Of a DNA stretch of 64,000 bases, positions 4,890 through 20,476 are shown in pieces. The DNA is from Filomicrobium sp. (GTDB taxonomy: Bacteria > Pseudomonadota > Alphaproteobacteria > Rhizobiales > Hyphomicrobiaceae), in the NCBI GenBank assembly GCA_017792465.1, contig CP051234.1, positions 932,606-996,605 of the forward strand, in the 5' to 3' direction. The notes under the pieces are model-generated. The model saw nothing but the letters and a program-made list of their open reading frames with translations. It did not search any database and was not told the DNA's origin. How positions within the stretch are numbered: the first letter of the stretch is position 1; every line of letters begins with the position of its first letter. Both the position numbers and the translations under genes were made by a program.

Positions 4890-5348
4890 ATGGATCTAGA
4901 GCGCGAACCTTTTTCATATCTGCAAGATCATGACGTCCCACCGTTTCAGGCTGGCGATGTGTTCACGGTCATGGATGCCAAATGTGCGTTGTGTTCGCGC
5001 GGTGCGGCGTGGATTGCGCGGCATGACAAAGCGCAGGAATTCACCATCATTCCGATGCAATCCGATGTTGGGCGTGCATTGTTCTCGCACTACGGCCTCG
5101 ATCCGGCCGATCCGCTATCTTGGCTCTACGTCGAAGACGGGCGTGCTTATAGTTCGCTCGATGCGTTGATCCGGGTCGGCGCGCGCCTGGGGGGATTTTG
5201 GAAGGTCCTCGGCCTGCTGCGCGTCCTGCCGGTCTCAGTGCAGGATGCCTTGTACCGGCTCGTTGCGCGAAATCGCTACCGGCTATTTGGAACCACCGAC
5301 ATGTGCGCTCTTCCCGATCCGCAAGTGCAAAAAAGGCTGCTGCGGTGA
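4890..5348 (+). CDS. DCC-family (DUF393) thiol-disulfide oxidoreductase-like protein
   Basis: 152 residues. The family signature near the start of the domain is seen as DAKCALCSRGA, the DxxCxxC form with both cysteines. It is followed by the usual middle region (DALIRVGARLGG) and C-terminal RYRLFG. The family is annotated as a thiol-disulfide oxidoreductase, but its reaction has little experimental support. No strong ribosome site is visible before the ATG. It overlaps the next gene by 4 bp (GTGA), so the two are translationally coupled. Confidence 0.85.
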   Translation: MDLEREPFSYLQDHDVPPFQAGDVFTVMDAKCALCSRGAAWIARHDKAQEFTIIPMQSDVGRALFSHYGLDPADPLSWLYVEDGRAYSSLDALIRVGARLGGFWKVLGLLRVLPVSVQDALYRLVARNRYRLFGTTDMCALPDPQVQKRLLR

Positions 5349-7003
5349 AAGTCCTCATTCTCGGCGGCTACGGTGTTTTTGGCGGGCGGCTTGCCGAGCT
5401 TTTGTCGGATATTTCAGAGCTTGAAATTGTCATCAGTGGGCGCAACCTCGAACGCGCTGAAGCCTATTGCGCGAGCTATCAGGGCTCAGCCGTCGTTCGG
5501 CCACTGCAGCTCGACCGTGACGACATCGTTGCGGCGCTGCAGGCCGAACATCCCGATCTCGTCGTCGATGCCTCCGGACCGTTCCAGGCTTACGGCGATA
5601 AACGCTACGACGTGATTTCCGCCTGCATTGCCGCCGGGGTCGACTACGTAGATTTTGCTGACGCGGCGGACTTTGTGTTCGGCGTCTCGAAGTTCGACGC
5701 GGACGCCAAGGCAGCCGGGGTTTCGGTTCTGTCCGGCGTCAGCAGTTTCCCCGTCCTGACGGCCGCCGTGCTTCGGCAAATGGCTACAACCATGGACATC
5801 GTCTCTGTTGAAGGTGGCATTGCGCCGTCGCCCTATGCAGGTATCGGGCTCAACGTCATGAAGGCGGTTGTCGGCTATGCCGGCGCGCCTGTGAAGCTTC
5901 TGCGAAACGGTGTGCAAACCCATGCGACGGGGCTCGCCGAAAGCTTGCGGTTTACAATCGCCGTGCCCGCGCGATTGCCTTTGCGCAACATTCATTTTTC
6001 GCTAGTGGACGTTCCAGATCTGCAAGTCATCCCGCCGGAACACCCTCACCTTCGCGATATCTGGATGGGTGCGGGGCCGGTTCCCGAAATTCTGCATCGC
6101 GCTTTGAACCTGCTTGCCAAGGCGCGCGCCACGTTCGGGTTGCCATCTTTCGCGCCCCTGTCCGGTCTGTTTTACCGGGTTTTGAACGTGATGAAATTCG
6201 GTGAGCATCGTGGCGGCATGTTTGTGCGGGCGCGCGGCCTTCGGGGCGGCCAAGAGGTCGAGCAAAGCTGGCATCTCTTGGCGGAAGGCGATGATGGGCC
6301 CTACATTCCGTCGATGGCGATCGAGGCCATTATCCGAAAAACTCTGGCGGGCAAGAAACCGGAGGCTGGCGCACGAGCTGCGACGCAAAAACTGCAATTA
6401 TCGGACTACGACCGTCTCTTTGAAAACCGATTGATCACGACCGGCTTTCGCAACAAACCGCTGGCAAGCGACCCGATCTACCGAAAAGTTCTCGGATCTG
6501 CATTCAACGAGCTGCCGATGCAGGTGAGGGCGCTCCATGACAGTACCGAAACGCGCCAATGGTCAGGTCGCGCTCAAGTGCGCCGCGGGTCGGGCATGAT
6601 GGCGAGGGCGATTGCGTGGATCATCGGTTTCCCGGAAGCCACGAGCGAGGTTCCGGTACGTGTCGCGCTCACCCCTGAGGCGCACGGGGAACGCTGGACC
6701 AGGGATTTTGGCGGCAAGGTCTTCTCTTCGTACCAGGAATGCGGGACGGGCAAGAACGACTATCTGATGATCGAGCGCTTCGGCCTCATCAGCATCGCAC
6801 TGGCTCTCGTGATGAAGAAAGATAGGTTGTATCTCATCCCGCGCCGGTGGTCGTTTATCGGCGTTCCCCTGCCCGGATTTCTTCTCCCGCGCGGACAAAC
6901 GTACGAGACAGAACGCGACGGTCATTTCTGTTTCGATGTCGAGATCGCCGCGCCGTTGATTGGATTGATCGTCGCCTACAAGGGCGAGCTTCTGCCGGAC
7001 TAA
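5345..7003 (+). CDS. NAD(P)-binding saccharopine dehydrogenase-like protein with DUF4166 domain
   Basis: About 552 residues from the GTG at 5345, which overlaps the upstream stop and directly begins the Rossmann strand MKVLILGGYGVFGGRLAELL. Residues 1-350 resemble the saccharopine-dehydrogenase NADP domain, with VVDASGPFQAYG. After about residue 360 a DUF4166-type domain begins (IYRKVLGSAFNELPMQV) and runs to the end. The fusion with DUF4166 beside a DCC protein is a recurrent arrangement in proteobacteria. Substrate and reaction are unknown; true saccharopine dehydrogenase activity is unlikely. Confidence 0.82.
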   Translation: MKVLILGGYGVFGGRLAELLSDISELEIVISGRNLERAEAYCASYQGSAVVRPLQLDRDDIVAALQAEHPDLVVDASGPFQAYGDKRYDVISACIAAGVDYVDFADAADFVFGVSKFDADAKAAGVSVLSGVSSFPVLTAAVLRQMATTMDIVSVEGGIAPSPYAGIGLNVMKAVVGYAGAPVKLLRNGVQTHATGLAESLRFTIAVPARLPLRNIHFSLVDVPDLQVIPPEHPHLRDIWMGAGPVPEILHRALNLLAKARATFGLPSFAPLSGLFYRVLNVMKFGEHRGGMFVRARGLRGGQEVEQSWHLLAEGDDGPYIPSMAIEAIIRKTLAGKKPEAGARAATQKLQLSDYDRLFENRLITTGFRNKPLASDPIYRKVLGSAFNELPMQVRALHDSTETRQWSGRAQVRRGSGMMARAIAWIIGFPEATSEVPVRVALTPEAHGERWTRDFGGKVFSSYQECGTGKNDYLMIERFGLISIALALVMKKDRLYLIPRRWSFIGVPLPGFLLPRGQTYETERDGHFCFDVEIAAPLIGLIVAYKGELLPD

Positions 7004-7128
7004 ATTATTGCGAATTCGTGGCGCTGAGCGGCCAGTTTCGGTCGGCACCCAGACATTGCATTGTCTCTCGCGGTTCGTTTGCCAGTCAAATGGCATCACC
7101 ACCGTCTACCGACAACAACAGCCGGCCG

Positions 7129-7614
7129 CTATCGGTTGCGCGTCAAGATCGACGAGAAGCCCCGGTTGATCGTGTGGTTGATGAAGGTGTTTAGCACAGC
7201 CTTGCTGACCGCCTGCCCCATGATGCTGGTGACACTCGGATTGTCTTGCGATTTGGCGGCATTGCCGGCTTGACGGGACGCTGGTTCGGCTTGGCGGTCG
7301 ATTTTCGCGACTGCCATGCTATCGGTGCCGGACCCATCCTTGTTCGCGCTCGACCTAGCGTGACGCTCGACTCTGCGGTTGAGTGAGGCTTTCGGGCAGT
7401 GCTCGCAAATGTGGTCCATGATGCAGTCGATCTCGCCGACCTCGGTGCAATAGTGCACGATGATCGACGCCGCGTAACGATTGATCTCGATGGATTTGAC
7501 GCCGTCGAGCGAGCCGACTTTTTTCTCGATCAAATTCGCCAACTGATCGTCGCGGCGCAAAGCTTCAATCTTGAATCGGACGCGGCCTGGAATGTGGTGA
7601 ACACAGGAAACCAT
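7129..7614 (-). CDS. HMA-like metal-associated protein, last gene of the fez-type (ferrosome) operon
   Basis: About 161 residues. GGAGGAA lies just before the ATG at 7614; the in-frame TTG at 7629 would overlap that ribosome site. Residues 4-70 form a ferredoxin-like HMA_2-type domain opening with HHIPGRVRFKI; it lacks the CxxC of copper HMA domains. The rest is polar, and a C-terminal segment (SVTSIMGQAVSKAVLNTF) could be an amphipathic helix. It is the distal gene of a six-gene run whose content matches fez operons, which carry HMA-like proteins next to the P1B-6 ATPase FezB. A role in shaping or loading an iron compartment is inferred from that context. Confidence 0.75.
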   Translation of the reverse strand: MVSCVHHIPGRVRFKIEALRRDDQLANLIEKKVGSLDGVKSIEINRYAASIIVHYCTEVGEIDCIMDHICEHCPKASLNRRVERHARSSANKDGSGTDSMAVAKIDRQAEPASRQAGNAAKSQDNPSVTSIMGQAVSKAVLNTFINHTINRGFSSILTRNR

Positions 7615-7733
7615 TTCGACTTCCTCCAATTTTCCCCATCGACTTTACATAGCATTTTTCATGCCAGTAAGACAATCAATATGGACCAGTGCGCGACTGA
7701 GTTCTGCTGTTGTGTCCAACTCGCGACCATGGG

Positions 7734-9905
7734 CTAGGAGACCGCAGGCGTCGCGTTCTTTCGATCTGCAATCCCGGCGCGGGCAATCGCGGTCGCCAGC
7801 AGGCCGATCGTCGAACCATTGTGCAGGACCGCGGCCGCAACCGGCGAGAGGAACCCGGCCGAGGCGGCAATGAAAAGACCCGTGTTGATGCCAATCGCCG
7901 CCGTGCCGTTCGCCGATATGATCCGCATCGCCTGAACGGCTGCCTCACGGGCATCCGCGACTGCGCTGATACGATCGTCAAGCAAGGTGATGTCAGCTGC
8001 GGCTCTTGCGATATCGGCGCCCTGCGACATGCTGAAACCAACATTGGCGGCCGCCAGCGCCGGAGCGTCGTTCACGCCATCGCCAACGAAGGCAATCTTG
8101 CGTCCAGAGTTCTGCAGCTCGGTCAGGATGCGTTGTTTGTCCTCAGGCCGGAGCTCGGTATGAACCTCGTCAAAGCCGAGCGCTTCTGCGAACCTTTCGG
8201 AACGGCCTTTGCGGTCACCGGTCAGCATCACCAGTGAGGTGACGCCGGAAGCGCGCAGTCGGTCAGCCGTTGCGCGGGCATCGTCACGCAATTCATCGCG
8301 CAGCCCGAACACGCCGACCGGTTTGCCACCAACGGCGACGTAGAGCAGCATCTTTCCTTCTTCGACCAATTTTTCGATCGCGTCGGTGTGATCGTCAAAG
8401 CTGATCGCCTCGATGTCTTCGAGGAAGTGCCGGCTCCCGATCAGGACCTCGCGCCCATCGACGGTTGCGCGCAATCCGTAGCCGACGTCGAATTTAACTT
8501 CGCCGTGCGAAACGTGGCTCGTCTCATTCGCGCGGGCTTCGTTGACAATCGCCTTGGCGATCGGGTGCTGGGAATGCTCTTCGACCGAGGCGCTAAGTGC
8601 CAGAATGTGTTGGGATGACCAGTCATCCGGTGCGAGCGAAACGACATCGGTGACAGACAAATTGCCGTGTGTCAGCGTTCCGGTTTTGTCGAACACGAAC
8701 GTATCGATCTCCGCCAGCTTCTCGATGCTGGGGCCGCCCTTGATCAGGATACCGCGTGCCACAGCGTCAGCCATTGTGGCCCGGACGGCAACCGGGGCAG
8801 AGAGTTTGATCGGGCAGGCGTAATCGACCAGGAACACGGAGCTGAGCCGGCGCAAGTCACGCGTCAGCAACAGGGTCGCAAAACCCAATCCGAGCGTCAT
8901 GTAGACCTGCCGGTCTCCTTGTTTCTGGGCCAGGCGTTCGGTGTCTGAGCGGACTTCCAGCGACTCTTTGATCAACGCCGTGATCCGCGCTGTCGTCGTT
9001 TCGTCCCCGACTTTTTGCGCCTCGATCCGGAGCGAACCGTCTTCGACGAAACTGCCGGCGATGATGCTGTCGCCGGTCTCTTTCGTCACCGGCAAACTCT
9101 CACCCGTAATCGAAGCTTGGTTGACCTGCGCTGCGCCACCGCGCACGACGCCATCGACAGGGACCAGTTCGCCGGTATTGACGACGACGATGTCGCCGGA
9201 CTTGACGGTCGAGAAGGGAACTTCGACCGCGCCGCCGTCGTGCTCGACCCACGCCGTTTCGGGGTTCGGCATCAAGAGTTCTTGCAGGAGTTCGCCGGAG
9301 TGGCGAACGGTTGTCTCTTCGAGATATTCGCCGGCCCCCATCATAAGATCGGTCGTGACCGCGGTCGCAACCCCGCCGCGCACAGCCCCGACCGAGACAG
9401 CAAGCGCGTCGAGAAGCTCAACGCGGACGCCTTCGGTGACAAGCGTGCGGACGCCGCGCAAAACGCGCGGAGCGATCACAGCGGCCCCCAGCGCATTGCG
9501 GACCTTAGGGGGGAGCAGTGGATACGCCGCCAGGAACGCAATCCGCCCGACGAGAGGCGTTGGCGATGGCGCATCATTTTCGCCGCGCGGCCGGAAATGA
9601 AGCTGATCGCGCCTCAGTTCGAAGAGACGTTTCAGGATCCGCGCACGGGCCGCTGCAGTTCCATCGTAGCTGATCACCACAGAGATCGCAGCCGGATTGA
9701 TGCGGACCGATGCGGCACCCGTCGTTGCTCGGATCACGCGACTGAGATGCTCGACATCAAGCCCGGGGAGACCCAGAATGGGAAGTTTCAAGCGCAATCG
9801 GCCACGGCATTCGTGGACAATATCCAATCCCATCCCGATCACGGATGACGGAGCGAGGGCGGGTTCGGATTTGGATTCGATCACCGGGGCATGCTGCAGC
9901 TGCAT
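7734..9905 (-). CDS. fezB: P1B-type metal ATPase, FezB-like (ferrosome ATPase)
   Basis: About 723 residues from the ATG at 9905; a TTG at 9917 is possible. An N-terminal HMA_2-like domain without CxxC holds ECRGRLRLKL, similar to the HIPGR motif of the two stand-alone HMA proteins here. The A-domain has TGES, the phosphorylation site is DKTGT (Asp near residue 406), and the hinge is GDGVNDAPAL. The membrane metal site reads YACPIK (Cys364-Pro365), not CPC, SPC, TPC or CPH, so it is not a standard Cu, Zn or Co pump. Fez operons contain a P1B-6 ATPase, FezB, needed to form ferrosomes. Position among HMA-like and glycine-rich partners next to feoABC supports this assignment. Confidence 0.82.
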   Translation of the reverse strand: MQLQHAPVIESKSEPALAPSSVIGMGLDIVHECRGRLRLKLPILGLPGLDVEHLSRVIRATTGAASVRINPAAISVVISYDGTAAARARILKRLFELRRDQLHFRPRGENDAPSPTPLVGRIAFLAAYPLLPPKVRNALGAAVIAPRVLRGVRTLVTEGVRVELLDALAVSVGAVRGGVATAVTTDLMMGAGEYLEETTVRHSGELLQELLMPNPETAWVEHDGGAVEVPFSTVKSGDIVVVNTGELVPVDGVVRGGAAQVNQASITGESLPVTKETGDSIIAGSFVEDGSLRIEAQKVGDETTTARITALIKESLEVRSDTERLAQKQGDRQVYMTLGLGFATLLLTRDLRRLSSVFLVDYACPIKLSAPVAVRATMADAVARGILIKGGPSIEKLAEIDTFVFDKTGTLTHGNLSVTDVVSLAPDDWSSQHILALSASVEEHSQHPIAKAIVNEARANETSHVSHGEVKFDVGYGLRATVDGREVLIGSRHFLEDIEAISFDDHTDAIEKLVEEGKMLLYVAVGGKPVGVFGLRDELRDDARATADRLRASGVTSLVMLTGDRKGRSERFAEALGFDEVHTELRPEDKQRILTELQNSGRKIAFVGDGVNDAPALAAANVGFSMSQGADIARAAADITLLDDRISAVADAREAAVQAMRIISANGTAAIGINTGLFIAASAGFLSPVAAAVLHNGSTIGLLATAIARAGIADRKNATPAVS

Positions 9906-9917
9906 TGCGGCTCTCAA

Positions 9918-10145
9918 TCACTCGTCGCGGGCGGCTTTGATTTCAGATTCGGCGTCGCGGAAACGCTCTTTCGTCTCCTCTACAGCGCCTTTCAACGTAA
10001 GCCACATATGAGCGGCGCTATTGATTGCGGCACGCTGAACGGCTTCATTTGTCAAGACGTAGGTTACCAAACCGCCAAGGACTGCACCGGTCACAAAACG
10101 CTTTCCTGTCAAATCGGGCAGGCCGGTCCGGGGTGGTGTTGCCAT
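9918..10145 (-). CDS. Small membrane protein, DUF5132-like, fez-type operon
   Basis: About 75 residues. AAGGAGAT just upstream fixes the ATG at 10145. It has one glycine-rich membrane segment (FVTGAVLGGLVTYVLTNE) followed by a charged amphipathic helix (VEETKERFRDAESEIKAA). This architecture matches DUF5132 proteins found beside P-type ATPases, and recalls the PacL scaffolds of mycobacterial ATPases. The gene ends 12 bp before the fezB ATG. A scaffold role for the ATPase is an inference from shape and position. Confidence 0.72.
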   Translation of the reverse strand: MATPPRTGLPDLTGKRFVTGAVLGGLVTYVLTNEAVQRAAINSAAHMWLTLKGAVEETKERFRDAESEIKAARDE

Positions 10146-10244
10146 CGTTATCTCCTTCAGGACTTTTGGATTGGGCAAGGTCTTTTGAATTTCGTTTCGC
10201 ACATGGTTGGCGCCGGTATTCTGCCGATGTCGGCCGCCATGGCG

Positions 10245-10604
10245 CTAATTCTTGTGCTCTGGCTCCGGCTGAGGTTCTGCCTTGTGCGCAGCAGGCGCGT
10301 GAGATGCGCTTGCGAAATAGACGGCACCTATGGCCAATGCTGCGAGACCGATCATCGGGACGCTTCTTGCGATATGCGAGGCCAGGTGCGCGACTGCCCC
10401 TGCCCCGGCGCCAACGACGGCGCTCTTGGCCGTGGCCTGGATGGCTTCATCGGCGGTGATCTCGTTATTGCGCACGCGAACCGTTTCATAAATCGCTGTC
10501 CAAGTGCCAGCGATCGCCGCGCCGCTGGCACCGGCACGCAGGATTTCGCCAGTGGGTGGAATAGCGCCATTTGGCGGCAAGGCCGCCCCGTTGGAGTTGT
10601 TCAC
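10245..10604 (-). CDS. Glycine-rich membrane protein, fez-type operon
   Basis: 119 residues starting at a GTG that overlaps the upstream stop by 4 bp (GTGA). Alanine- and glycine-rich helical segments occur at residues 24-40 (AGASGAAIAGTWTA) and 60-100 (AVVGAGAGAVAHLASH, then VPMIGLAALAIGAVYFA). Glycine-zipper spacing suggests packed membrane helices, and a His/Glu-bearing tail (AAHKAEPQPEPEHKN) ends the protein. Function is unknown. Translational coupling to the His-rich protein and position in the six-gene run suggest a structural part of the iron compartment membrane. Confidence 0.7.
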   Translation of the reverse strand: MNNSNGAALPPNGAIPPTGEILRAGASGAAIAGTWTAIYETVRVRNNEITADEAIQATAKSAVVGAGAGAVAHLASHIARSVPMIGLAALAIGAVYFASASHAPAAHKAEPQPEPEHKN

Positions 10605-11305
10605 AAGCCTGTCTCCTTCATGCCAGGGCCGTCTGTATCGGTTGCCGATGGGTCCGCGCTCGCCGACGTCTCCGATGAATTCGTTTCGGGCGCTGCGTCA
10701 GGATCAACCGAATGACCAGTTCCGCTCACAGCATCGGTCGCGGCCTGCACCATCGACGTCAAAGCCGGCAGGTTGGAAAGCAACAGAACCGCGGCCGAAC
10801 CAACGAGTGCACCCTTCCAGAAATCGCGGTCGTTCAGATTGAGTAAACTTCCCAACGTTTGCGCATCCACCTCTCCTCTCGACATCTTGTCGAAGGCCTG
10901 CATGAGATCCTGGTTGTCGGCTTCTGCAGCCGCGTGCCCGTGTGCCGGCCCGTGTTGATTTCCATGCATCTCTTGACCCTTTGAAGCAGGTCCGGCCTCC
11001 CATGGCGGTTGCGGGCCAAAATAGTACCACCCCTGGGGCGGCTGACCTTCGTGATGCGCGTGCCCCTGATGCGCGTGTCCTGGCGACTGTGGGTGGCCGT
11101 GAGCATGCTGAGGGTGGTGATGGCCATGCATGTGGTCGTCATGATGGTGAGCGTTGCCATGCAAATCACCGTGCGTCTTTTCGGTCATTTCGTCTCCAAT
11201 TCGAGCCGGGTCCATTTCCTCGTCGGCATCTTCAGCCGATTGGGTCGATGGGCGCCCGCTTGAAAAAATCTGCCAAGGTCGGTCGCGGTCGTTTTGCTCA
11301 GCCAA
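10601..11305 (-). CDS. Histidine-rich membrane protein, fez-type operon
   Basis: 234 residues if it starts at the TTG at 11305, which overlaps the upstream gene by 8 bp. An ATG at 11188 with GGAG a few bases upstream would give 195 residues and keep all notable parts, so the start is uncertain. Residues 45-90 are packed with His (HHHDDHMHGHHHPQ and more), and a second His group lies near 112-125. A single membrane segment (FWKGALVGSAAVLLLSNLPA) follows at about 162-181, then an acidic Ser/Thr-rich tail. Binding of iron or another divalent metal by the His region is likely but unproven. Confidence 0.72.
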   Translation of the reverse strand: MAEQNDRDRPWQIFSSGRPSTQSAEDADEEMDPARIGDEMTEKTHGDLHGNAHHHDDHMHGHHHPQHAHGHPQSPGHAHQGHAHHEGQPPQGWYYFGPQPPWEAGPASKGQEMHGNQHGPAHGHAAAEADNQDLMQAFDKMSRGEVDAQTLGSLLNLNDRDFWKGALVGSAAVLLLSNLPALTSMVQAATDAVSGTGHSVDPDAAPETNSSETSASADPSATDTDGPGMKETGL

Positions 11306-11663
11306 ACGTTGTGGCTGTCGTCGTTGCCGTCGTCGGGGTTTCTTTTGTGATGCCGGGCTTCATCATGCTTTCCAGGAGGGGTCCAGCCTGTTTGCGATCT
11401 GCGTGCATCAATTGCTCCCAACGCTCTGGCGCGACTCTGCCGGGTGCGTAGGAGATAACGACGGAACCGGCGGCTTCATTGATCCGAACCTCCTTGATGC
11501 CATCGATCTCGTTGAGGAAGCCTTCGACGTCAGACTTGTTGACGGTGCCGAGTTCCTTCAACGCAGACACCCCGATCTTCAGCCGAATTCTTCCCGGAAT
11601 GTGATGGGCGATCTTCATGTGTCTTCTCAAGTCGAAGAAGCGATTCAGTTCGATCTCTGTCAT
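11298..11663 (-). CDS. HMA-like metal-associated protein, first gene of the fez-type operon
   Basis: 121 residues from the ATG at 11663; an internal ATG at 11618, preceded by GAGAAG, would begin directly at MKIAHHIPGRIRLKI. The domain is the same HMA_2 type as the distal gene of this operon and lacks CxxC. The C-terminus is a short Thr/Ala-rich tail (TPTTATTTATT). Its 3' end overlaps the His-rich gene by 8 bp. The operon is thus bracketed by two related HMA-like proteins, and the N-terminal part of the ATPase carries a third related domain. Confidence 0.72.
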   Translation of the reverse strand: MTEIELNRFFDLRRHMKIAHHIPGRIRLKIGVSALKELGTVNKSDVEGFLNEIDGIKEVRINEAAGSVVISYAPGRVAPERWEQLMHADRKQAGPLLESMMKPGITKETPTTATTTATTFG

Positions 11664-11684
11664 GGTTCCAGATCTTGTTTCTTG

Positions 11685-12257
11685 CTAACGTGGCTCGCAG
11701 GTTTGTATTTCAGAAATTAGCATACGAGCGAATTCCCAGTCTTCCTCTTCGCCGTCGCTATTGGCGGCAAGGTAAATTTCCAGACCGACATAAAGCGGTG
11801 ATGTTCCAAGCCAAACTCTGTGCGGTATCCATGTCTTGGCTTCGGCGTCTGCGACGCTGACGGATCCTGATGGCTCAACGCGTTCATCGGTTGAGGCGAT
11901 GTGCACCAATCGGACGTTTTCTTTGAAGCCACGGTCTTTGGTTTTGTGAGCAAGGCATTTCAGAAAGCGCTCGTCGTGCGAGAACACGTCAGCGCTGCGG
12001 CCCGCTTCATCCAAGCCGCGATGCAAGTCGATCAGGAGGCGGTAGCGGTTGTGCACCTGTTGATGCAGCTGCAGGTAAATCTCACGATGCTGAGCGCTGG
12101 AGTAGAAGCGCTCGCGTGGGCTCGTCTTGGCCTGTGGGATGCCCTGGGGAATCCGCATCAGATCGAAGCGCGATGGATCGATATGCGCGGCAACCCGGTC
12201 GCCAAAACCGAGTTCGTCACGATGGATGCCGATCACCAGGAGCGTGTCTTTCATCAT
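11685..12257 (-). CDS. Unknown protein between feoC and the fez-type genes
   Basis: 190 residues, soluble, no signal peptide. It opens with a strand (TLLVIGIHRDELGFGD) and contains LLIDLHRGLDE, faintly like metal-binding loops of N-formylglutamate or aspartoacylase-type hydrolases, but the match is too weak to assign a reaction. The C-terminus is acidic (NSDGEEEDWEFARML). It ends 22 bp before the first HMA-like gene and starts 40 bp after feoC on the same strand, so it is probably co-transcribed with the iron genes. It lies outside the six-gene fez-type set. Confidence 0.6.
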   Translation of the reverse strand: MMKDTLLVIGIHRDELGFGDRVAAHIDPSRFDLMRIPQGIPQAKTSPRERFYSSAQHREIYLQLHQQVHNRYRLLIDLHRGLDEAGRSADVFSHDERFLKCLAHKTKDRGFKENVRLVHIASTDERVEPSGSVSVADAEAKTWIPHRVWLGTSPLYVGLEIYLAANSDGEEEDWEFARMLISEIQTCEPR

Positions 12258-12296
12258 AACCGTTGTTCGGACCGGGGAGTTACGCTCCAGTCCGCG

Positions 12297-12515
12297 CTAA
12301 TCTCTCCATTCATAGATTTCCATCGTCAGGGGATCGCATTTGCAGCAGGTTCCGCATGGCTTTGCGGCCAGAAGTTTCACGACGCTGCCTTTGGAGATCC
12401 ATTTGCTCAGCATGCCTCGCAAGGCATCGGGATCGGAGCCGAAGCGAAGCGCCATATCGGACAACGTGGCGCGCCGATGCGTCTGCAGATAGGTGCGAAG
12501 TTCCGATAGGATCAT
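12297..12515 (-). CDS. feoC: FeoC-like winged-helix protein
   Basis: About 72 residues from the ATG at 12515, which has GAGGA about 8 bp upstream. The N-terminal part is a small winged helix (LRTYLQTHRRATLSDMALRF) and the C-terminus has a cysteine group CGTCCKC. FeoC proteins use such cysteines for an Fe-S cluster and act on FeoB stability or transcription. It follows feoB by 18 bp on the same strand. Confidence 0.82.
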   Translation of the reverse strand: MILSELRTYLQTHRRATLSDMALRFGSDPDALRGMLSKWISKGSVVKLLAAKPCGTCCKCDPLTMEIYEWRD

Positions 12516-12533
12516 GACCACATCCTCTCTCTC

Positions 12534-14957
12534 TCACGCCGGGACCTGAGCACTGCTCGGCAATGTCTTGCTGCCACGGTCTTGCCCCCAGTATCGCATC
12601 GCCCCGATGACGAGCGCGGAGAACGCGATACACCCTGCGATCCACGCTGACGAAGAGCCAACGTGAGCGTTGAACGTCGCAATCTGGTAGAAAAGCGTAG
12701 CTGCGATATACGCAAAGCCGGTGGTCCAGGCTGCTACAAAGATGGTCCAGCGTGCACTGGCCTCCCGGCGGACGGCCGCGATGGCAGCCACGCACGGCAT
12801 GTAGAGCAGCACGAACAGCAGATAAGCGAACGCTCCGGCCATTCCGTCAAATCGCTGCGTCATGGCGCCATAAGTGCCGACGCCGACTTCTTGCGCTTCG
12901 GCTGCGGCTGCTTGATCGGAGACGTCGCCAATGTTGAGGCCCATCGGATCGAGCCAGCTTCCCATGGCTTCCGACAAGTTGGTGGGAATGGTTGCCAAAC
13001 CTTCGGCAACCGTCCCGATGAGATCAAAGGGTTTGTTGCTCTCCTTGGGAGGAGGCGCTGGCAGCTCTTCTTTGGTTTTGTCAGCGCGCCAGCTCATTGG
13101 TTTTGGATTGGTCTGACTGCGTAGCTCAGTCTCGTCCCTCTCGCCCAAAGACGTGTAAAGCGCATCAAGCGTTCCGACGACCGCTTCCTTGGCCAGCAGG
13201 CCAGTAAAGATACCAACAGAGGCGGGCCAGTTCTGCTCTGTCACACCGAACGGCGTGAACAGCGGAGTTATGGTGCGACCGATTTCGCTGAGAACGGATT
13301 TGTCGGAATCCTCATTACCGAAGCTGCCGTCCGTGCCGATGCTATTCAGCACGTTCAGCACCAGAACCATCGGGACGATCACGCGTCCTGCGCGCACCAC
13401 AAAGCTTTTCGTGCGGTCCCAGGTTCTCAGCAACACGCCCTTCAGCGTCGGCATCCTGTAAGGCGGCAACTCCATGACGAAGGGCGTGACTTCGCCTCTT
13501 AAGAGTGTGTTCTTGAGAATGAGTCCGGTCAACACGGCCGCCAGAATGCCGATGAAGTAGAGCAAGAAAACAATGTACTGCCCATATGAAGCGAAGAAGG
13601 CGGCGGCAAACAGAGCGTAGACGGGCAGCCTCGCACCGCACGACATAAACGGCGACATGGCGATCGTGATTTTGCGGTCGCGTTCGTGCTCAAGCGTGCG
13701 GGTCGCCATAACGGCCGGCACCGTGCAGCCGAAACCGACAATCATCGGCACGAAAGATTTTCCCGGCAATCCGATGCTACGCAGAAAGCGGTCCATGACG
13801 AACGCGGCCCGCGCCATGTAGCCCGAATCCTCAAGCACTGAGAGGAACAGAAACAAACTCGCGACAATCGGGATGAATGTTGCGACGACCTGAAGTCCGC
13901 CGCCAATCCCATTGGCCAACAACACCGTCAGCCATTCCGGCGAACCGACCGCGCCAAGAAGGGCGGCGAAGCCATCGACGACGAACGCGCCCGTCACGAT
14001 GTCGAAGGCATCGATGAACGCGCCACCAATGTTAATGGTGAACATGAACATCAAGTGCATCGCGAGCAGGAAGATCGGGATGCCCAGCGCCCGGTTGAGG
14101 ACAACGCGGTCGATCTTGTCGGATATGTTGCCGACAAATTCACCCTTGCGCTTGACCGTGCCCTCGACCAACCGATTGACGAAACTGTAGCGGGCATCCG
14201 CCAAGGAGATGTCGATGTCGTCGCCAAGGGCCGCTTCGAGTTGGCGCTGGTCTTCTGCGAACTTTGCGGCCTTCTCGTTGCCGGCCATTTTTTTCGCGAG
14301 GTTGTCACCTTCGAGGAGCCGCAGCGTGAGCCACCGAGGGTCAGCGTTATTGGATGCCGCCAGATCAACGAGCTCGGGCTGAAGCGACGCAACGGCTTGC
14401 TCGATTGCCGGAGCATAGGGGATCGTCAAAGGCGATACGCGGCCGTTTTGAGCGGCCTCGCGGATGGCTGCTTTGAGTTCCGGGACGCCCTTCCCCGTCG
14501 GCGCGACTATGGGAAGAACCGGGCAACCCAGAGCGGTCGCCAGGGCGGGAACGTCAATGCTAATGCCAGCATCCTCGGCGGCATCGATCATGTTGAGCGC
14601 CACCAGCATCGGGACCTTCATTTCCAGAAGCTGGGTGGTGAGATAGAGATTGCGTTCCAGGTTCGAGGCGTCGACGATGTTGATGATCAAGTCGGCGTCG
14701 CGTTGCGCCACATAATCGCGCGCGATCTTTTCATCAACGGAGACTTCGGCGTCGGACACCTCAAGCGAATACGTGCCCGGCAGGTCGACGAGTTCAAACT
14801 CGACGCCATCGAGGTAATATCGGCCGGTTTTGCGTTCTACGGTGACACCGGGCCAATTGCCGACACGTTGCTTTGCTCCGGTCAGAGCATTGAACAAAGT
14901 CGTCTTTCCGCAATTTGGATTGCCGACGACGCCAACGACAAACTTCTTTTTGCTCAT
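12534..14957 (-). CDS. feoB: Ferrous iron transport protein B
   Basis: 807 residues, slightly longer than typical FeoB. The N-terminal G domain has G1 GNPNCGKTT, G3 DLPGTYS and G4 NMID, followed by a helical GDI-like part. The membrane domain shows the two Gate motifs with cysteines (GCTVPAVMATR and SCGARLPVYALF) and GLLAKEAVVGTLDALY. Residues at about 620-700 form an extra loop rich in charged residues. It imports Fe2+ across the inner membrane. Its ATG overlaps the feoA stop by 4 bp, so the two are translationally coupled. Confidence 0.96.
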   Translation of the reverse strand: MSKKKFVVGVVGNPNCGKTTLFNALTGAKQRVGNWPGVTVERKTGRYYLDGVEFELVDLPGTYSLEVSDAEVSVDEKIARDYVAQRDADLIINIVDASNLERNLYLTTQLLEMKVPMLVALNMIDAAEDAGISIDVPALATALGCPVLPIVAPTGKGVPELKAAIREAAQNGRVSPLTIPYAPAIEQAVASLQPELVDLAASNNADPRWLTLRLLEGDNLAKKMAGNEKAAKFAEDQRQLEAALGDDIDISLADARYSFVNRLVEGTVKRKGEFVGNISDKIDRVVLNRALGIPIFLLAMHLMFMFTINIGGAFIDAFDIVTGAFVVDGFAALLGAVGSPEWLTVLLANGIGGGLQVVATFIPIVASLFLFLSVLEDSGYMARAAFVMDRFLRSIGLPGKSFVPMIVGFGCTVPAVMATRTLEHERDRKITIAMSPFMSCGARLPVYALFAAAFFASYGQYIVFLLYFIGILAAVLTGLILKNTLLRGEVTPFVMELPPYRMPTLKGVLLRTWDRTKSFVVRAGRVIVPMVLVLNVLNSIGTDGSFGNEDSDKSVLSEIGRTITPLFTPFGVTEQNWPASVGIFTGLLAKEAVVGTLDALYTSLGERDETELRSQTNPKPMSWRADKTKEELPAPPPKESNKPFDLIGTVAEGLATIPTNLSEAMGSWLDPMGLNIGDVSDQAAAAEAQEVGVGTYGAMTQRFDGMAGAFAYLLFVLLYMPCVAAIAAVRREASARWTIFVAAWTTGFAYIAATLFYQIATFNAHVGSSSAWIAGCIAFSALVIGAMRYWGQDRGSKTLPSSAQVPA

Positions 14958-15187
14958 GACCGATCGCTCTCGACTTCAAGTGTCCCAGCTTCATCTTTGC
15001 GGAGGCTCAGGCTGAAACCTCGAACCCTGATTTCCACTGGGTCCCCCATGGGCGCGAAACGCGTGACCTTGAATTCGGTACCGGGCGTCAGACCCATCGC
15101 CAAAAGCTTGTGCCGATAAGCTTTGCTGCCCTTGTCGAAGCCGGTTATCCGCCCCGTTTCACCGACCGTCAGATCTCGCAGCTTCAT
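14954..15187 (-). CDS. feoA: FeoA, SH3-like partner of FeoB
   Basis: About 77 residues. GGAGAACATCG precedes the ATG at 15187 and gives the usual FeoA start, MKLRDL. Conserved features are LLAMGLTPGTEF and RGFSLSLRKDEA. FeoA is a cytosolic SH3-like protein needed for FeoB function. It overlaps feoB and lies about 29 bp after a second feoA-like gene. Confidence 0.92.
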   Translation of the reverse strand: MKLRDLTVGETGRITGFDKGSKAYRHKLLAMGLTPGTEFKVTRFAPMGDPVEIRVRGFSLSLRKDEAGTLEVESDRS

Positions 15188-15216
15188 CGATGTTCTCCTG
15201 ATCATTTCGATCGCGC

Positions 15217-15474
15217 CTAAAGCTGCGCCACCAGAATTTTCTGTGCCATGCCTGCACCGAGCGCCAAACGTGTCTCACCACGAATGACGACGACCTGATT
15301 GGCCAAGCGTTGCGAGACCAGAACTTCGCTTCCGACGTTGAGGCCCAGGTCGGTCAGACGCATTTCGATCTCGTGCCCGCCCGTGTGGCGGACGATGCGA
15401 ACGCGCTCGCCTTCCTGGGCTAGGGCCAGAGGGAAAGGTTTGACTTGCTCGCCGTCGAATGCGTCCACATTCAC
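15217..15474 (-). CDS. Second FeoA-domain protein
   Basis: 85 residues from a GTG at 15474, longer at the N-terminus than feoA. The SH3-like core is seen in RIVRHTGGHEIEMRLTDLGL and the end RLALGAGMAQKILV. Two feoA-type genes before feoB occur in other proteobacteria. It is the first gene of the iron operon; the promoter must lie in the roughly 450 bp upstream. Confidence 0.85.
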   Translation of the reverse strand: MNVDAFDGEQVKPFPLALAQEGERVRIVRHTGGHEIEMRLTDLGLNVGSEVLVSQRLANQVVVIRGETRLALGAGMAQKILVAQL

Positions 15475-15923
15475 CTGCCAAAGCGATCCCGTTGCCTCTC
15501 AGCGCGTTTGCGCCGGAGTGCCTCCACGCCGCCATGCACAAGAAGGGGCGGCCTCACTGAAACGAAGCTTTGATGTGCTTGATCCGAATAGAAACCTAAC
15601 CCCCAAGAACTTTACTTGTAAAGTATACTTTTCGTCGCTGGAAAGAATGATCTAAGTCATTTTTAAGAAGAAACTCAGTATCGTGAAATGTTTTGGAACG
15701 GATGTACTGCGTCGGCTTCCCACACCCTATTTGGGCAGATCGACAAGTGGCTGCTGGCAGTCTTCTGTTGAGTTAAGGCTAATAGAATTGTTCTGGTCAG
15801 CGCTTCCGAACTAAAATTGGAAAGGCGGACATGCGGTGCGAGGACGATCGGTTTGGTCCGCCCGGTCGTGACCATGGCCATGGATTTAGACGTAGCAAAC
15901 AGAACGACGAAAATTGGGGTCTG
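15475..15923 (+). other. Divergent promoter region between the iron operon and a small coiled-coil gene
   Basis: 449 bp without a supported gene. It should hold the promoter of the feo/fez-type run on the minus strand and of the gene at 15924 on the plus strand. The only structured element noted is the set of overlapping inverted repeats at 15609-15631. Confidence 0.6.
15609..15631. promoter_or_regulatory. Overlapping inverted repeats upstream of feoA, candidate iron operator
   Basis: ACTTTA-CTTG-TAAAGT is an inverted repeat and shares its right half with a perfect 12-bp palindrome AAAGTATACTTT, so three half-sites lie in 23 bp. It sits about 135 bp before the first feo gene in an AT-rich patch. 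Fur, Irr or another iron regulator would be a natural binder, but the match to any published consensus was not tested. Confidence 0.4.
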
Positions 15924-16241
15924 ATGATGGATAAAGATGAAGTTGCTGCTCACAAGGAACACCTGCGTCACGAGCAGGATCACCTCAAGTGGACGGCGGA
16001 ACATATGCGCGCCCTTGCCATTCTTAAAAGGGTCGAAGCGCATCTCTTCGTGCATGAGGCTGAGATCGCAGAACACCGTGCGGAGATCACCAACCACGAA
16101 GAAACGATTGCCCACGGGCACGATCACGCGCCAGCGGGCTCGTCTGGTGTGCATGAAACGATGGCAAAGGCTCATTCCGATGCCGGCAAGAACCATGACC
16201 GGCTCATGGAAGCGATCCTGGCTTTGGAAAAGCTGCTCTAA
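15924..16241 (+). CDS. Small His-rich coiled-coil protein
   Basis: About 105 residues from the ATG at 15924, with GGGG just upstream; an in-frame start at 15831 cannot be excluded. It is nearly all helical and charged, rich in His, Glu and Lys (KEHLRHEQDHLKWTAEHM, then HETIAHGHDHAP as a weaker group). No signal peptide or membrane segment. No family was recognised. Histidine content and position between the iron and zinc loci suggest a metal-binding role, which is only an inference. Confidence 0.5.
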   Translation: MMDKDEVAAHKEHLRHEQDHLKWTAEHMRALAILKRVEAHLFVHEAEIAEHRAEITNHEETIAHGHDHAPAGSSGVHETMAKAHSDAGKNHDRLMEAILALEKLL

Positions 16242-16253
16242 ACGCTGAAAAAC

Positions 16254-16943
16254 TCAGCTTGGCGCGGCGTTGACGCAAAAGAAGAGGCGCACGTGTTGCG
16301 TCCCCTTGATCTTCGGCGACCGGTGCACCAGCCCCGGTCGTCCAGGTTGCTCGCCGGCAAAGAGGCTAACCCAGAACGGTGGGATCTCGATCACCGGTCC
16401 CGCATAGTTTTCCTGTTCGATCCGCGCGTGTTCGCCATGGCAGCGCGGGACAGCGACCGTACCGGGGCCGACGTAGGTGACCGCCAACCTCTCCGGATAG
16501 CTGTCGACATGATAGCGTCGGCAGGCATCGTTGCGGATGACATCAAGCCTCGCCTCGATCTGTCCCGTCCCGGTGGTCGTTGCGAAGATGCGTGTCAGGC
16601 GCACCATGTCGGTGGCGAGGAAGCTGGTAAGTTCTGGCTGAGCGAATTCACTGTCTGCCATAGCCTCTGCGATGACCGACCCTGCAATCTGGGCATCGAA
16701 ACTTTTGCGCCAGCCGGTCATCCGGTCCAGCTGTAATTCGTCAAGATAGCTGGAGATGTCTGCAGGGGGCTGGCGACACCACATGGCCAGTGAGGTCAGT
16801 TCATTGCCCCAACTGTTGAAAACAGCTGCAGTATCTTCGCAAGCAATCCCGGGACCATCGAAGTTCGGCGCTTTTGCCGACGCTGCGGCCAACTCCGATG
16901 CGTTACCGCTGCACGTGGGCTGCTCAAATAACTCAGTCGTCAT
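16254..16943 (-). CDS. DUF1826 domain protein, zinc-scarcity operon
   Basis: 229 residues with the features of DUF1826: an N-terminal helical part, RRYHVDSYPERLAVTYVGPG in the centre, and HRSPKIKGTQHVRLFFCV near the end. DUF1826 genes recur beside COG0523 GTPases and Zur sites in proteobacteria, which implies a role when zinc is scarce; the biochemical function is unknown. It is the third gene of the operon led by the CobW-type GTPase. Confidence 0.8.
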   Translation of the reverse strand: MTTELFEQPTCSGNASELAAASAKAPNFDGPGIACEDTAAVFNSWGNELTSLAMWCRQPPADISSYLDELQLDRMTGWRKSFDAQIAGSVIAEAMADSEFAQPELTSFLATDMVRLTRIFATTTGTGQIEARLDVIRNDACRRYHVDSYPERLAVTYVGPGTVAVPRCHGEHARIEQENYAGPVIEIPPFWVSLFAGEQPGRPGLVHRSPKIKGTQHVRLFFCVNAAPS

Positions 16944-16967
16944 TGCACCCTCCCTCTGCTCAAGGAT

Positions 16968-17693
16968 CTACGCATGGCCGATCCACCCGCGCCAAGTGAA
17001 CGCAGAAAAGAACAGATCCACATCTTCGAAGCCGCCGTCGCGGAGAATTTTTTCGTCGACTTGCGGTGATAGCGCTAGGTCACTCGCCTCAATCGTATCG
17101 CGCGCTTTCACAGCCCGTTCTCGATCAGCTCCCGACGCAATCGCAAACGTTGCGTAGCGGTCGAGCCAGAGCGACCTTTCTTTTGGCGACTGTGGAAAGC
17201 TCGCATGGGCCGCGACGAAAGGTGCTCCTTGCCGTAGCCGCCGATGGATTTCTTTGACGGTCGCAAGGCGCTTAGCCTCAGGCAAGAAGTGCAAAGTCAA
17301 AAGGCATGTGGCGGCGTCGAAAGGACCGAACGGTGCACCAGTGATGTACCCCTCGATTAATTCGACCCGTTCCATCTGCTCACCCAGCACACGTCTCGCT
17401 TCGCGCAGCATTTCGGGCGCTGGATCAACCCCGACGAAGGTCCATCGCGGATGCGCATCCGCCATAGCCTTTAATTCAAGACCGCCGCCGGCTCCCAAAA
17501 CAAGAACACGCGCATCCTCCGGAGCACGCTCGGCCAACAGCGCGCCTGTCATCACGTGCAACGCTTCGCAACCAGGAAGAAACCGCTTCAACTCGGTTCC
17601 ATAGGCATCGATGAATTCGCGGTCTGAGAAGTTCTTGAGGAGGTCGGACGAACTATCTAGATGTTGGCCGCTCATGCTGCCTCTTTGCCCCAT
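16968..17693 (-). CDS. Class I SAM-dependent methyltransferase
   Basis: 241 residues. The SAM-binding motif I is [15 protein letters not shown] near residues 59-73, with the acidic residue [10 protein letters not shown] after strand 2, then [13 protein letters not shown] for motif IV. The substrate is unknown. It overlaps the CobW-type gene by 22 bp and is followed by DUF1826, so it is part of the presumed Zur regulon. Confidence 0.85.
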
Positions 17694-18931
17694 GCCGGAA
17701 ACGGGTCAGGCAGCTTGCGCCATTCGCGCGTGTCGATGCGGCTTCCGGCCGGGACATCCAGCAGACAGGCATCGAGTTCAGCGCGGATCGCGGCTTCATT
17801 CATTTCGCTTGTGCCAATGAATACGAGTTCCTGCCGCCGGTCGCCCCACAGCTCGTGCCAGCCCTTCTCGACGCGGGCTACGATATCGGCGTCCTTCGGC
17901 CAGTTCTTTTTCGGCACCGCCGCCCACCAATAGCCAACGCCTTCGGTCCGCATCATGGGGCCGGCTTGTGAAAGCTCACCGACGTATTCGGCACGCGAAG
18001 CAAGCCAGAAAAACCCTTTCGCGCGAACGACGCCCGGCCAGCTTTTGGCAAAGAACGCGTGCACTTTGGCTGGATCGAAAGGCTGGCGTGCCCGGTAGAC
18101 GAAACTGGTGATGCCGTATTCTTCGGTCTCCGGTACGTGGTCCTTGAAGCCGTTCAGCTCCTTGAACCAGGTTGGGTGGCCGTGCGCGGCCTCGAAGCTG
18201 AACAGTCCTGTATCGAGGATTTCGGCAAGCTCGACGTTTGCGTTGGTTGTCTCAATGATGCGTGCGTCGGCATTGAGCGAGCGAATGATGGAGCGAGCCG
18301 AAGCAACCTCGTCCGGTGCGGCAATGTCCAGCTTGTTGAGGACGATCACGTCGGCGAACTCGATCTGGTCAACCAGGAGATCGACAAGCGTACGTTCGTC
18401 TTCATCGCCGGCTGTCTCGCCGCGGTCTTTCAGGAAATCGTGGGACGAATAGTTGCGTAGCAGGTTGGCCGCATCGACGACCGTCACCATCGTATCCAAG
18501 CGTGCCACATCCGAGAGGCTAAGGCCTTCGTCGTCGCGGAACTCGAAGGTTGAGGCGACGGGGAGAGGTTCTGCGATGCCGGTCGATTCAATCAGCAGGT
18601 AGTCAAAGCGGCCGTCGGCAGCCAGACGCCGGACTTCCTCCAGCAAATCCTCGCGCAATGTGCAGCAGATGCAGCCGTTGGTCATCTCGACCAGCGTCTC
18701 ATCTGTCCGCGAGAGATTGGCGCCGCCATCGCGAACGAGTTCGGCGTCGATGTTAACCTCACTCATATCGTTGACGATGACAGCAACCTTCTTGCCCTCA
18801 CGGTTGCCGAGCACGTGATTGAGCAGCGTCGTCTTCCCGGCGCCGAGGAAGCCTGACAAGACGGTGACGGGCAGGCGGTTGTCAATGTGGGCGTCTGCGT
18901 TTGCCAAATGGGTCGAGAGTTTTTCGTCCAT
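17672..18931 (-). CDS. CobW/COG0523 GTP-binding metallochaperone, zinc type
   Basis: 419 residues. Walker A is [15 protein letters not shown], the metal-binding CxCC motif is [10 protein letters not shown], and NKLD gives the base-recognition motif. The C-terminal CobW domain is complete. The palindrome 37 bp upstream of the ATG and the DUF1826 partner point to the ZigA/ZagA/ZNG1-like zinc branch rather than cobalamin synthesis; no cobalamin genes are near. Family role: GTP-dependent delivery of Zn2+ to client enzymes under shortage. TGGAGTTCCC precedes the start. Confidence 0.88.
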
Positions 18932-19801: not shown

Positions 19802-20476
19802 ATGTCCAGAAGTCTCATCGCTGCAAGTGCCGCTGTTACCCTTGCTGCATTCACGCTTCCCGTCCAAGCCGAGAAGCGCCAACTCGGACCCCACGAGCAC
19901 GGCCACGGCACACTCAATATTGCGATTGAAGGCAAGAAGGTTGCGATTGAACTTGACGTACCCGGTGCCGACATTGCCGGCTTCGAGCATGAAGCCACGA
20001 CGCCGGAAGACAAGGCGCAGTTGGAAAAAGCGCAAGCCAATCTGAAGGAAGCGCTAAAGCTGTTCGTCATGCCTGCCGCCGCGTCATGCAAACTCGCCAA
20101 GGCCGAAGTCGAGCTCGAAGCCGAGCACGAACATGAGCATGAAGAGGGCAAAGAAGCTCATGAAGATCATGATCATGAAGGCAAGGAAGCCCACGACGAT
20201 CACGAAGGCAAGGAGGCGCACGAAGATCACGATCATGAAGGTAAGGAAGCTCACGAGGACCACGATCACGAGGAAGGCGCCCGGCACTCTGAATTCAACG
20301 CGACCTATGAGCTCGATTGCGCCAGCCCGAAAAAGATCGAAACCATTCAGTTCGACTACTTCAAAGTTTTCCCAAACGCACGCTCGCTCACGGTCAACCT
20401 CGTCAGCGATGCAAAGCAAGGCAGCTATGAGGTAACCAGCGAGAAGCCGGTCCTCGATCTCACAGGGAACATGTGA
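19802..20476 (+). CDS. zrgA: ZrgA-like periplasmic zinc-binding protein (DUF2796)
   Basis: 224 residues with a signal peptide ending near VQAEK. The start of the mature protein (RQLGPHEHGHGTLNIAIEG) is the DUF2796 signature. Residues 108-160 form an extreme His/Asp/Glu repeat region with about four copies of an 11-residue unit like GKEAHEDHDHE. The C-terminal part (LDCASPKKIETIQFDYFKVF) is again conserved DUF2796. ZrgA in Vibrio parahaemolyticus takes part in zinc uptake with an ABC transporter; the ABC pair follows here, the ATPase start overlapping by 4 bp. Confidence 0.85.
   Translation: MSRSLIAASAAVTLAAFTLPVQAEKRQLGPHEHGHGTLNIAIEGKKVAIELDVPGADIAGFEHEATTPEDKAQLEKAQANLKEALKLFVMPAAASCKLAKAEVELEAEHEHEHEEGKEAHEDHDHEGKEAHDDHEGKEAHEDHDHEGKEAHEDHDHEEGARHSEFNATYELDCASPKKIETIQFDYFKVFPNARSLTVNLVSDAKQGSYEVTSEKPVLDLTGNM
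20123..20283 (+). repeat. In-frame 33-bp repeat encoding His/Asp/Glu metal-binding region
   Basis: About four imperfect copies of a 33-bp unit (one shortened) inside the zrgA-like gene encode EGKEAHEDHDH-type residues. Copy number could vary between strains by slippage. Confidence 0.7.

Follow-up and report, generated by a model that had tools for sequence, protein, structure and literature searches.

The window analyzed here, 64,000 nucleotides (nt) of Filomicrobium sp. (positions 932,606 to 996,605 of contig CP051234.1), very probably holds a fez operon, of the kind that forms the iron-storing organelles called ferrosomes, fused end to end with a feo operon for uptake of ferrous iron. This reading rests on gene content and order, homology, the phylogenetic group of the ATPase FezB, continuity with feo and a set of HMA_2 domains (Pfam PF19991) found nowhere else in the genome. 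Judged from its sequence, the ferrosome-type gene set appears to be a further case of an already known system, to which one gene without an explanation (working name HRDE) is added. If this reading is true, Fe(II) uptake by Feo and organelle storage by fez form one gene run, here and in a Rhodopseudomonas, and a coupling of Fe(II) import to the filling of ferrosomes is therefore directly testable by genetics.

A feo-fez gene run on one strand

The first-pass annotation of this DNA had described six minus-strand genes at 7129–11663, and all six open reading frames (ORFs) are present there, encoding two HMA_2 proteins, a His-rich protein, a glycine-zipper protein, a small protein that we call FxxG and a P1B ATPase. 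The run also continues upstream to feoA at 15474 and takes in a gene at 11685–12257 on which that description does not remark. In full, eleven genes occupy the minus strand in the transcription order feoA-feoA-feoB-feoC-HRDE-HMA2a-HisR-GlyZ-FxxG-FezB-HMA2b, from 15474 down to 7129, with all eleven reading frames open and spacings of −8 to +119 nt, and we infer a single transcript for them all. The fez genes had been called mostly overlapping or a few bases apart; from HMA2a to HMA2b the spacings are −8, −4, +99, +12 and +119 nt, so that the wording holds for three of the five junctions and fails for the two of about 100 nt. The HMA2a/HisR overlap becomes a 109-nt gap if HisR begins at the ATG at 11188, which has a GGAG just 5′ of it.

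The feo genes comprise a first FeoA (15217–15474, 85 amino acids; PF04023, E 7.9e-15), a second FeoA-like protein (14954–15205, 83 amino acids) that overlaps the feoB start by 4 nt and has phmmer matches to genes preceding feoB in relatives, the FeoB ferrous iron permease (12534–14957; NF007105 826 bits, TIGR00437 631 bits) and FeoC (12297–12521; PF09012, E 1.3e-22). Among the fez genes, the first and the last encode stand-alone HMA_2 proteins with the HIPGR motif, as annotated: HMA2a (11298–11663, 121 amino acids, HHIPGRIRLK; E 1.5e-9, 38.4 bits) and HMA2b (7129–7614, 161 amino acids from ATG, HHIPGRVRFK; E 7.5e-12, 45.9 bits) both exceed the curated PF19991 cut-off of 30 bits, and the N-terminus of FezB falls below it at 18.8 bits. 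At E ≤ 0.01, the 4,470,904-base, one-contig genome has no HMA_2 match besides these three. Two of 14 control genomes have a match at that threshold and none exceeds the cut-off, which argues that the set is not a product of chance.

The remaining three small proteins have no family match above cut-off in the profile libraries. HisR (10601–11188, 195 amino acids with 23 His from ATG 11188, or 234 amino acids from TTG 11305) ends in a FWKGALVGSAAVLLL helix and reaches a hydropathy maximum of 1.59; GlyZ (10245–10604, 119 amino acids) is Gly/Ala-rich and glycine-zipper-like, with a maximum of 1.89. Both bear out their earlier descriptions. FxxG (9918–10145, 75 amino acids), a weakly hydrophobic helix with a charged tail that lies directly before fezB in relatives, had been called DUF5132-like; a Pfam search found no DUF5132 match at E ≤ 1 and the label was abandoned. 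Its hydropathy maximum is 1.28, and it is therefore weakly membrane-like by that measure. For comparison with other genomes, fez loci were selected by the motif in transmembrane segment 4 (TM4) of their ATPase, which kept 33 of 44 (L028, L029, L030, L042, L046, L049, L053, L059, L083, L173 and L174 were dropped, L049 solely for an R where the pattern required K or E; it is present in the tree below). Iterated GlyZ profiles match in 28 of these 33 loci, the window included. Profiles of HisR and FxxG match each other, which we take as a shared helix and not as gene identity. On Azospirillum and Arcobacter plasmids, the gene preceding the ATPase is annotated as 'YtxH domain' in the records.

Class and proposed role of the P1B ATPase

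FezB (7734–9905, 723 amino acids from ATG, with a possible TTG start at 9917) is a heavy-metal P1B ATPase, as first annotated (TIGR01525, 489.7 bits against a cut-off of 346). It has an N-terminal HMA_2-like domain, the TM4 motif DYACPIK, a DKTGTLT site and LHNGST near the last membrane helix. Only two Cys occur in the whole protein, and the N-terminal HMA_2/GRxR domain carries HECRGRLR in place of a CxxC HMA domain, a replacement that we take to be defining for fez.

We placed FezB in a tree of 73 P1B rows, built by a quick method with branch support from the Shimodaira–Hasegawa-like approximate likelihood-ratio test (SH-aLRT) only and with some long branches elsewhere flagged. The 32 FezB rows had been picked beforehand by the TM4 motif D[YF][AS]C, and the tree therefore tests whether these rows belong together, not whether they have the motif; L172 was also intended for it and was missed by the motif filter. 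The window FezB falls within the 32-row FezB group, which includes the Rhodopseudomonas fez ATPases and is separated by a branch of SH-aLRT 95. Escherichia coli CopA and ZntA, a Sinorhizobium Nia-like pump (used in the plasmid search only to obtain a tree reference) and three pumps of the same genome (two CPC, one TPC) lie outside. The annotation had named a grouping with Cu, Zn or Co pumps as the result that would refute it, and this tree, which has no characterised Co pump, separates FezB from the Cu, Zn and Nia-like representatives. The TM4 sequence lacks the CPC of Cu (P1B-1) and Zn (P1B-2) exporters, and the tree sets the protein apart from CopA and ZntA; the putative P1B-6 placement comes from grouping with the Rhodopseudomonas fez ATPases only. 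The nearest rows are the draft genome G128 (71% identity), Rhodobacter capsulatus (433/688), a Cereibacter plasmid and the f31 genomes. The group neighbouring FezB consists of 10 rows with mostly DxGTGxR-like TM4 motifs (L030, L033, L042, L046, L053, L059, L063, L083, L173 and L174); ORFs adjoining the L030 ATPase (Desulfobacteraceae) carry a PGR HMA_2-type motif.

By analogy with studied relatives, on which the iron and organelle steps rest (PMC10979944, PMC12574912, PMC12016538), the window fez genes would act on iron, form vesicles and store the metal. FeoAABC would import Fe(II) into the cytoplasm, and FezB, driven by ATP, would load it into a membrane-bounded vesicle, the ferrosome. The literature gives FezB as the putative transporter of ferrous iron in ferrosomes (PMC10979944) and, in a review table, assigns Fe(II) to P1B-6 (PMC7558416). 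What each small protein does is purely conjectural: the two HMA_2 proteins and HisR might pass on or buffer iron, and GlyZ and FxxG might be small membrane proteins, probably building or shaping the vesicle.

The same pump could instead sit in the plasma membrane and export excess Fe(II) to the periplasm, with the small proteins as metallochaperones or regulators and with no organelle. P1B ATPases are usually exporters, and the AlphaFold2 model of FezB (10 sequences; predicted local distance difference test score, pLDDT, 79.4; predicted template modelling score, pTM, 0.61) has an ordinary P1B layout, with an HMA-like N-terminal domain, eight membrane helices as counted from the helix list and TM4 broken at residues 359–361. 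The Protein Data Bank (PDB) structures closest to it in fold are Cu and Zn P1B pumps, and none was named FezB among the 60 of 111 PDB sequence matches listed. We nonetheless consider efflux unlikely, as five small proteins beside the pump are more than a simple exporter requires, the run follows an Fe(II) importer on one strand, an odd partner for an exporter, and a comparable six-gene set is reported to make ferrosomes in Rhodopseudomonas palustris (PMC12016538).

Transport of a metal other than iron, such as Ni, Co or Mn, would fit the TM4 CP form of the window (YACPIK), as most FezB rows have CA, and the His-rich partner, since proteins of that kind often bind Ni or Zn. However, the CP form is common to R. 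capsulatus, the Cereibacter plasmid and G128 and is thus a subgroup trait, fez follows directly on feoAABC here and on feoABC in the Rhodopseudomonas genome G606, and feo genes lie near fez in 10 further loci of the 33 (one a fragment). We regard another metal as very improbable and retain the reading of a ferrosome operon joined to feo.

Distribution, origin and the gene between feoC and fez

A search at E ≤ 1e-150 placed FezB in its own genome and in one of 98 sampled relatives (none of eight of the same genus, none of 50 of the same family and one of 40 of the same order). At E ≤ 1e-120, 15 of 397 genomes of the order match, its own included, and the other 14 all have DY[AS]C. In the phylum sample 8 of 398 genomes match, again with its own included and counted by match without a motif filter. 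A profile search of family f35 at E ≤ 1e-150 matched 15 of 248 genomes; L160–L162, among these 15, were rejected as FezB for their TM4 motif DYGTGIR. Named carriers among the matches listed include R. capsulatus, Rhodomicrobium udaipurense and Pseudothauera. Photosystem genes occur in 8 of 15 and 8 of 12 matching genomes examined (G587 and G560, counted among the 12, lack the motif of a FezB carrier) and are absent from the Filomicrobium genome.

Full-length FeoB was likewise not found in any of the eight same-genus genomes, where the matches listed cover the GTPase domain only. Window DNA up to about 4.6 kb and at 16.2–20 kb matches six same-genus genomes; from 4.6 to 16.2 kb the same six yield only scraps of ≤67 nt, within the ATPase gene. 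Three of the eight are 67–85% complete, and an empty site was not seen in the same-genus genomes. Because neither FezB nor full-length FeoB was found in any of the eight, it is a fair inference from these sequences that the block was acquired, or has been variably kept and lost by the others.

An acquired cassette might be silent, with intact frames yet either unexpressed or without an organelle in this host. The absence of FezB matches (E ≤ 1e-150) from the same-genus and same-family samples would suit this, as would the missing full-length FeoB in the genus, the presence of ferritins and the state of the nearest relative, G128, which has fezB without its small genes. Yet all eleven frames are open, gaps and overlaps are small and base composition is ordinary, and we judge silence to be improbable; a working feo-fez run remains our preferred reading. 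Directly behind fezB in G128 (L108, contig C364) lie short fragments resembling FeoB and the C-terminus of HRDE, possibly through decay or a fault of draft-genome assembly.

Plasmid records matching at E ≤ 1e-100 number 12, from Azospirillum (8), Arcobacter (2), Cereibacter (1, conjugative) and Vibrio (1). Since the block was not found in eight same-genus genomes and related fezB genes occur on plasmids, one of them conjugative, the ability to make ferrosomes may pass from one bacterium to another. Plasmid-borne fez-type clusters were seen in L118 (Cereibacter azotoformans pORIO2) and L119–L121; pORIO2 is conjugative according to PLSDB, and its cluster has TonB-dependent receptor genes nearby, as well as a FeoA gene.

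HRDE (11685–12257, minus strand, 190 amino acids) stands between feoC and fez. In an alignment of six homologues, GxHRxE, DxH and an E further on are conserved, H11, E14, H78 and E159 being invariant in all six, and we take the HxxE...H pattern to be a putative zinc site. The window protein has no Pfam match at E ≤ 5, three of the six relatives match only an unrelated Pfam model (best E 0.019), a profile search of the PDB had no credible hit (best E 0.11, unrelated) and no sequence profile placed HRDE among aspartoacylase/M14-like proteins. A model built from 3 sequences (pLDDT 65.8) gave ten Foldseek matches at E ≤ 0.001 (1.8e-4 to 1e-3; template modelling scores of about 0.4–0.5). Amidases, aspartoacylase and a putative metallopeptidase make up most of these, one is a proteasome activator, and purine nucleoside phosphorylases follow at about 3e-3. 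On that model, HRDE is perhaps an aspartoacylase/amidase-like zinc hydrolase.

Of ten matches to an iterated HRDE profile we kept seven (the window, L022, L026, L109–L111 and the C-terminal fragment in L108); those in L167–L169, with E down to 1e-58, were rejected on reading as shadow frames of low-complexity sequence. HRDE occurs in 11 of 397 genomes of the order, its own included, and eight of the 11 are among the 15 FezB carriers, one of these (G128) with the C-terminal fragment only and both 397-genome counts being treated as one draw. The co-occurrence has a Fisher p of 7e-11 uncorrected for kinship and, counted by genus (5/6 against 9/141), a p of 1.7e-6. FeoB lies within about 1.5 kb of HRDE in 8 of the 11 carriers; of the other three, L220 and L221 have no feo match nearby and the G128 fragment adjoins the short FeoB-like piece. 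Because of this proximity, and because G606 and R. capsulatus have fez with no HRDE nearby, HRDE has a stronger link to feo than to fez, and it is a candidate new component. A bolder proposal, which we put forward tentatively and think rather doubtful, is that feoAABC-HRDE-fez is a transferable uptake-and-storage cassette in which HRDE would be an undescribed zinc hydrolase serving Feo or the ferrosome; its processing target might, for instance, be FeoB, an iron ligand or a small membrane protein.

Upstream of feoA, a perfect 16-bp palindrome at 15609–15624 (ACTTTACAAGTAAAGT, with half-sites ACTTTAC and GTAAAGT around AA) is a candidate operator. It is the sole occurrence in the window, where 0.09 matches are expected at ≤3 mismatches (1 of 100 shuffles had as many), and its core has no exact copy in the 211 fetched loci. 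The window has 35 FNR-type sites where 24.7 would be expected; the one at 15579, which lies upstream of feoA and has 2 mismatches, was set aside, as was AATGA-N6-TCATT at 15646, with 1.6 expected by chance. Rfam gave nothing at gathering score in 5000–17000, and sigma-70 and terminator scans did no better than shuffles. Beyond the run, the minus-strand gene at 17672–18931 encodes a GTPase-like protein with GAGKTT and CICC, presumably CobW-like, and the plus-strand gene at 19802–20476 near it a His-rich protein (DHDHEGKEAHED); we assume that these two are perhaps a metal-handling pair.

Comparison with Rhodopseudomonas and other fez systems

R. palustris CGA009 is reported to form its ferrosomes with six genes, RPA2333–2338 (PMC12016538). 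Our comparison partners are the Rhodopseudomonas genomes G606 and G622, the latter standing in for CGA009; in the five FezB-bearing genomes of their genus (g181), 295 to 307 of the 307 PufM residues are identical to 6z5r_M, the reaction-centre M subunit from R. palustris (PMC7806223), with 303 in G606 and all 307 in G622.

The G606 locus (L165) reads feoA-feoB-feoC-HMA2-HisR-GlyZ-FxxG-FezB-HMA2, in the order and direction of the window, with identities of 309/694 for FezB, 32/85 for HMA2a (the gene after feoC), 26/58 for FxxG and 26/61 for HMA2b. All six window proteins outscore the best of 50 shuffles in local alignment, GlyZ narrowly; the scores (shuffle best in parentheses) are 1439 (84) for FezB, 147 (46) for HMA2a, 141 (32) for FxxG and 103 (65) for HMA2b. 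The locus differs in that nothing between feoC and fez matches HRDE, one feoA is detected instead of two, the His-rich counterpart is shorter (103 amino acids) and lacks the long His tract, and TM4 has SCAVK where the window has ACPIK. Together with the ATPase group, this agreement in gene number, order and feo neighbours upholds at the gene level the fez assignment of the first-pass annotation, which had cited gene number, gene types and feo neighbours, with two of the six proteins weakly alike. In G622 (L169), six co-directional genes ending in FezB were read from the ORF list, among them two HMA_2, a GlyZ-type and an FxxG-type protein. Identities to the window are 278/689 for FezB, 30/85 for HMA2a and 21/63 for FxxG, with scores of 1308 (79), 140 (43) and 108 (41); here, however, fezB is preceded by both HMA_2 genes, and the 18 kb covered show no feo gene.

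Several findings weigh against a ferrosome operon joined to feo. The tested clusters (CGA009, Shewanella putrefaciens, Desulfovibrio magneticus and Clostridioides difficile) enter the comparison by description, not by sequence. Against G606, HisR at 66 (48) and GlyZ at 74 (69) are weak pairwise, and their match therefore rests on iterated profiles and position; against G622, GlyZ scores 39, below the shuffle best of 47 (the ORF there had an early non-ATG start), and the HisR and second HMA_2 genes of that locus reach profile scores of just 18 and 24 bits. Genes of the feo system accompany 12 of the 33 fez loci (the window and the L108 fragment included), with none in the other 21 within the DNA examined, and the closest FezB relative, in G128, lacks the surrounding small genes. 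No E. coli-type Fur box occurs in the window at ≤3 mismatches, and no DUF4405 (FezC) match at E ≤ 1 in the six proteins. The substrate of P1B-6 is called not yet definitively defined in the cited passage of PMC6884021. The genome also has four ferritin-family matches and so need not depend on ferrosomes, which would be an added store.

R. capsulatus DSM 1710 (L021) has identities to the window of 433/688 for FezB, 76/137 for HisR, 44/70 for FxxG and 58/97 for GlyZ, and an HMA_2 protein after fezB that is 72/129 identical to HMA2b; HMA2b homologues also follow fezB in the f31 genomes (L109–L111). In contrast to the window, R. capsulatus has no HMA2a before the cluster, and no feo or HRDE gene was found in the 18 kb covered. 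D. magneticus and Desulfurispirillum indicum differ by FezC, a cytochrome of the DUF4405 type that the six window proteins do not match; as the cited passages name FezC for these two organisms, they do not make it a defining trait of the six-gene type (PMC12574912, PMC10979944). The ferrosomes of C. difficile are described with FezA and FezB, and what these three systems share with the window, by description, is a FezB transporter accompanied by one or more membrane partners (PMC12574912, PMC10979944).

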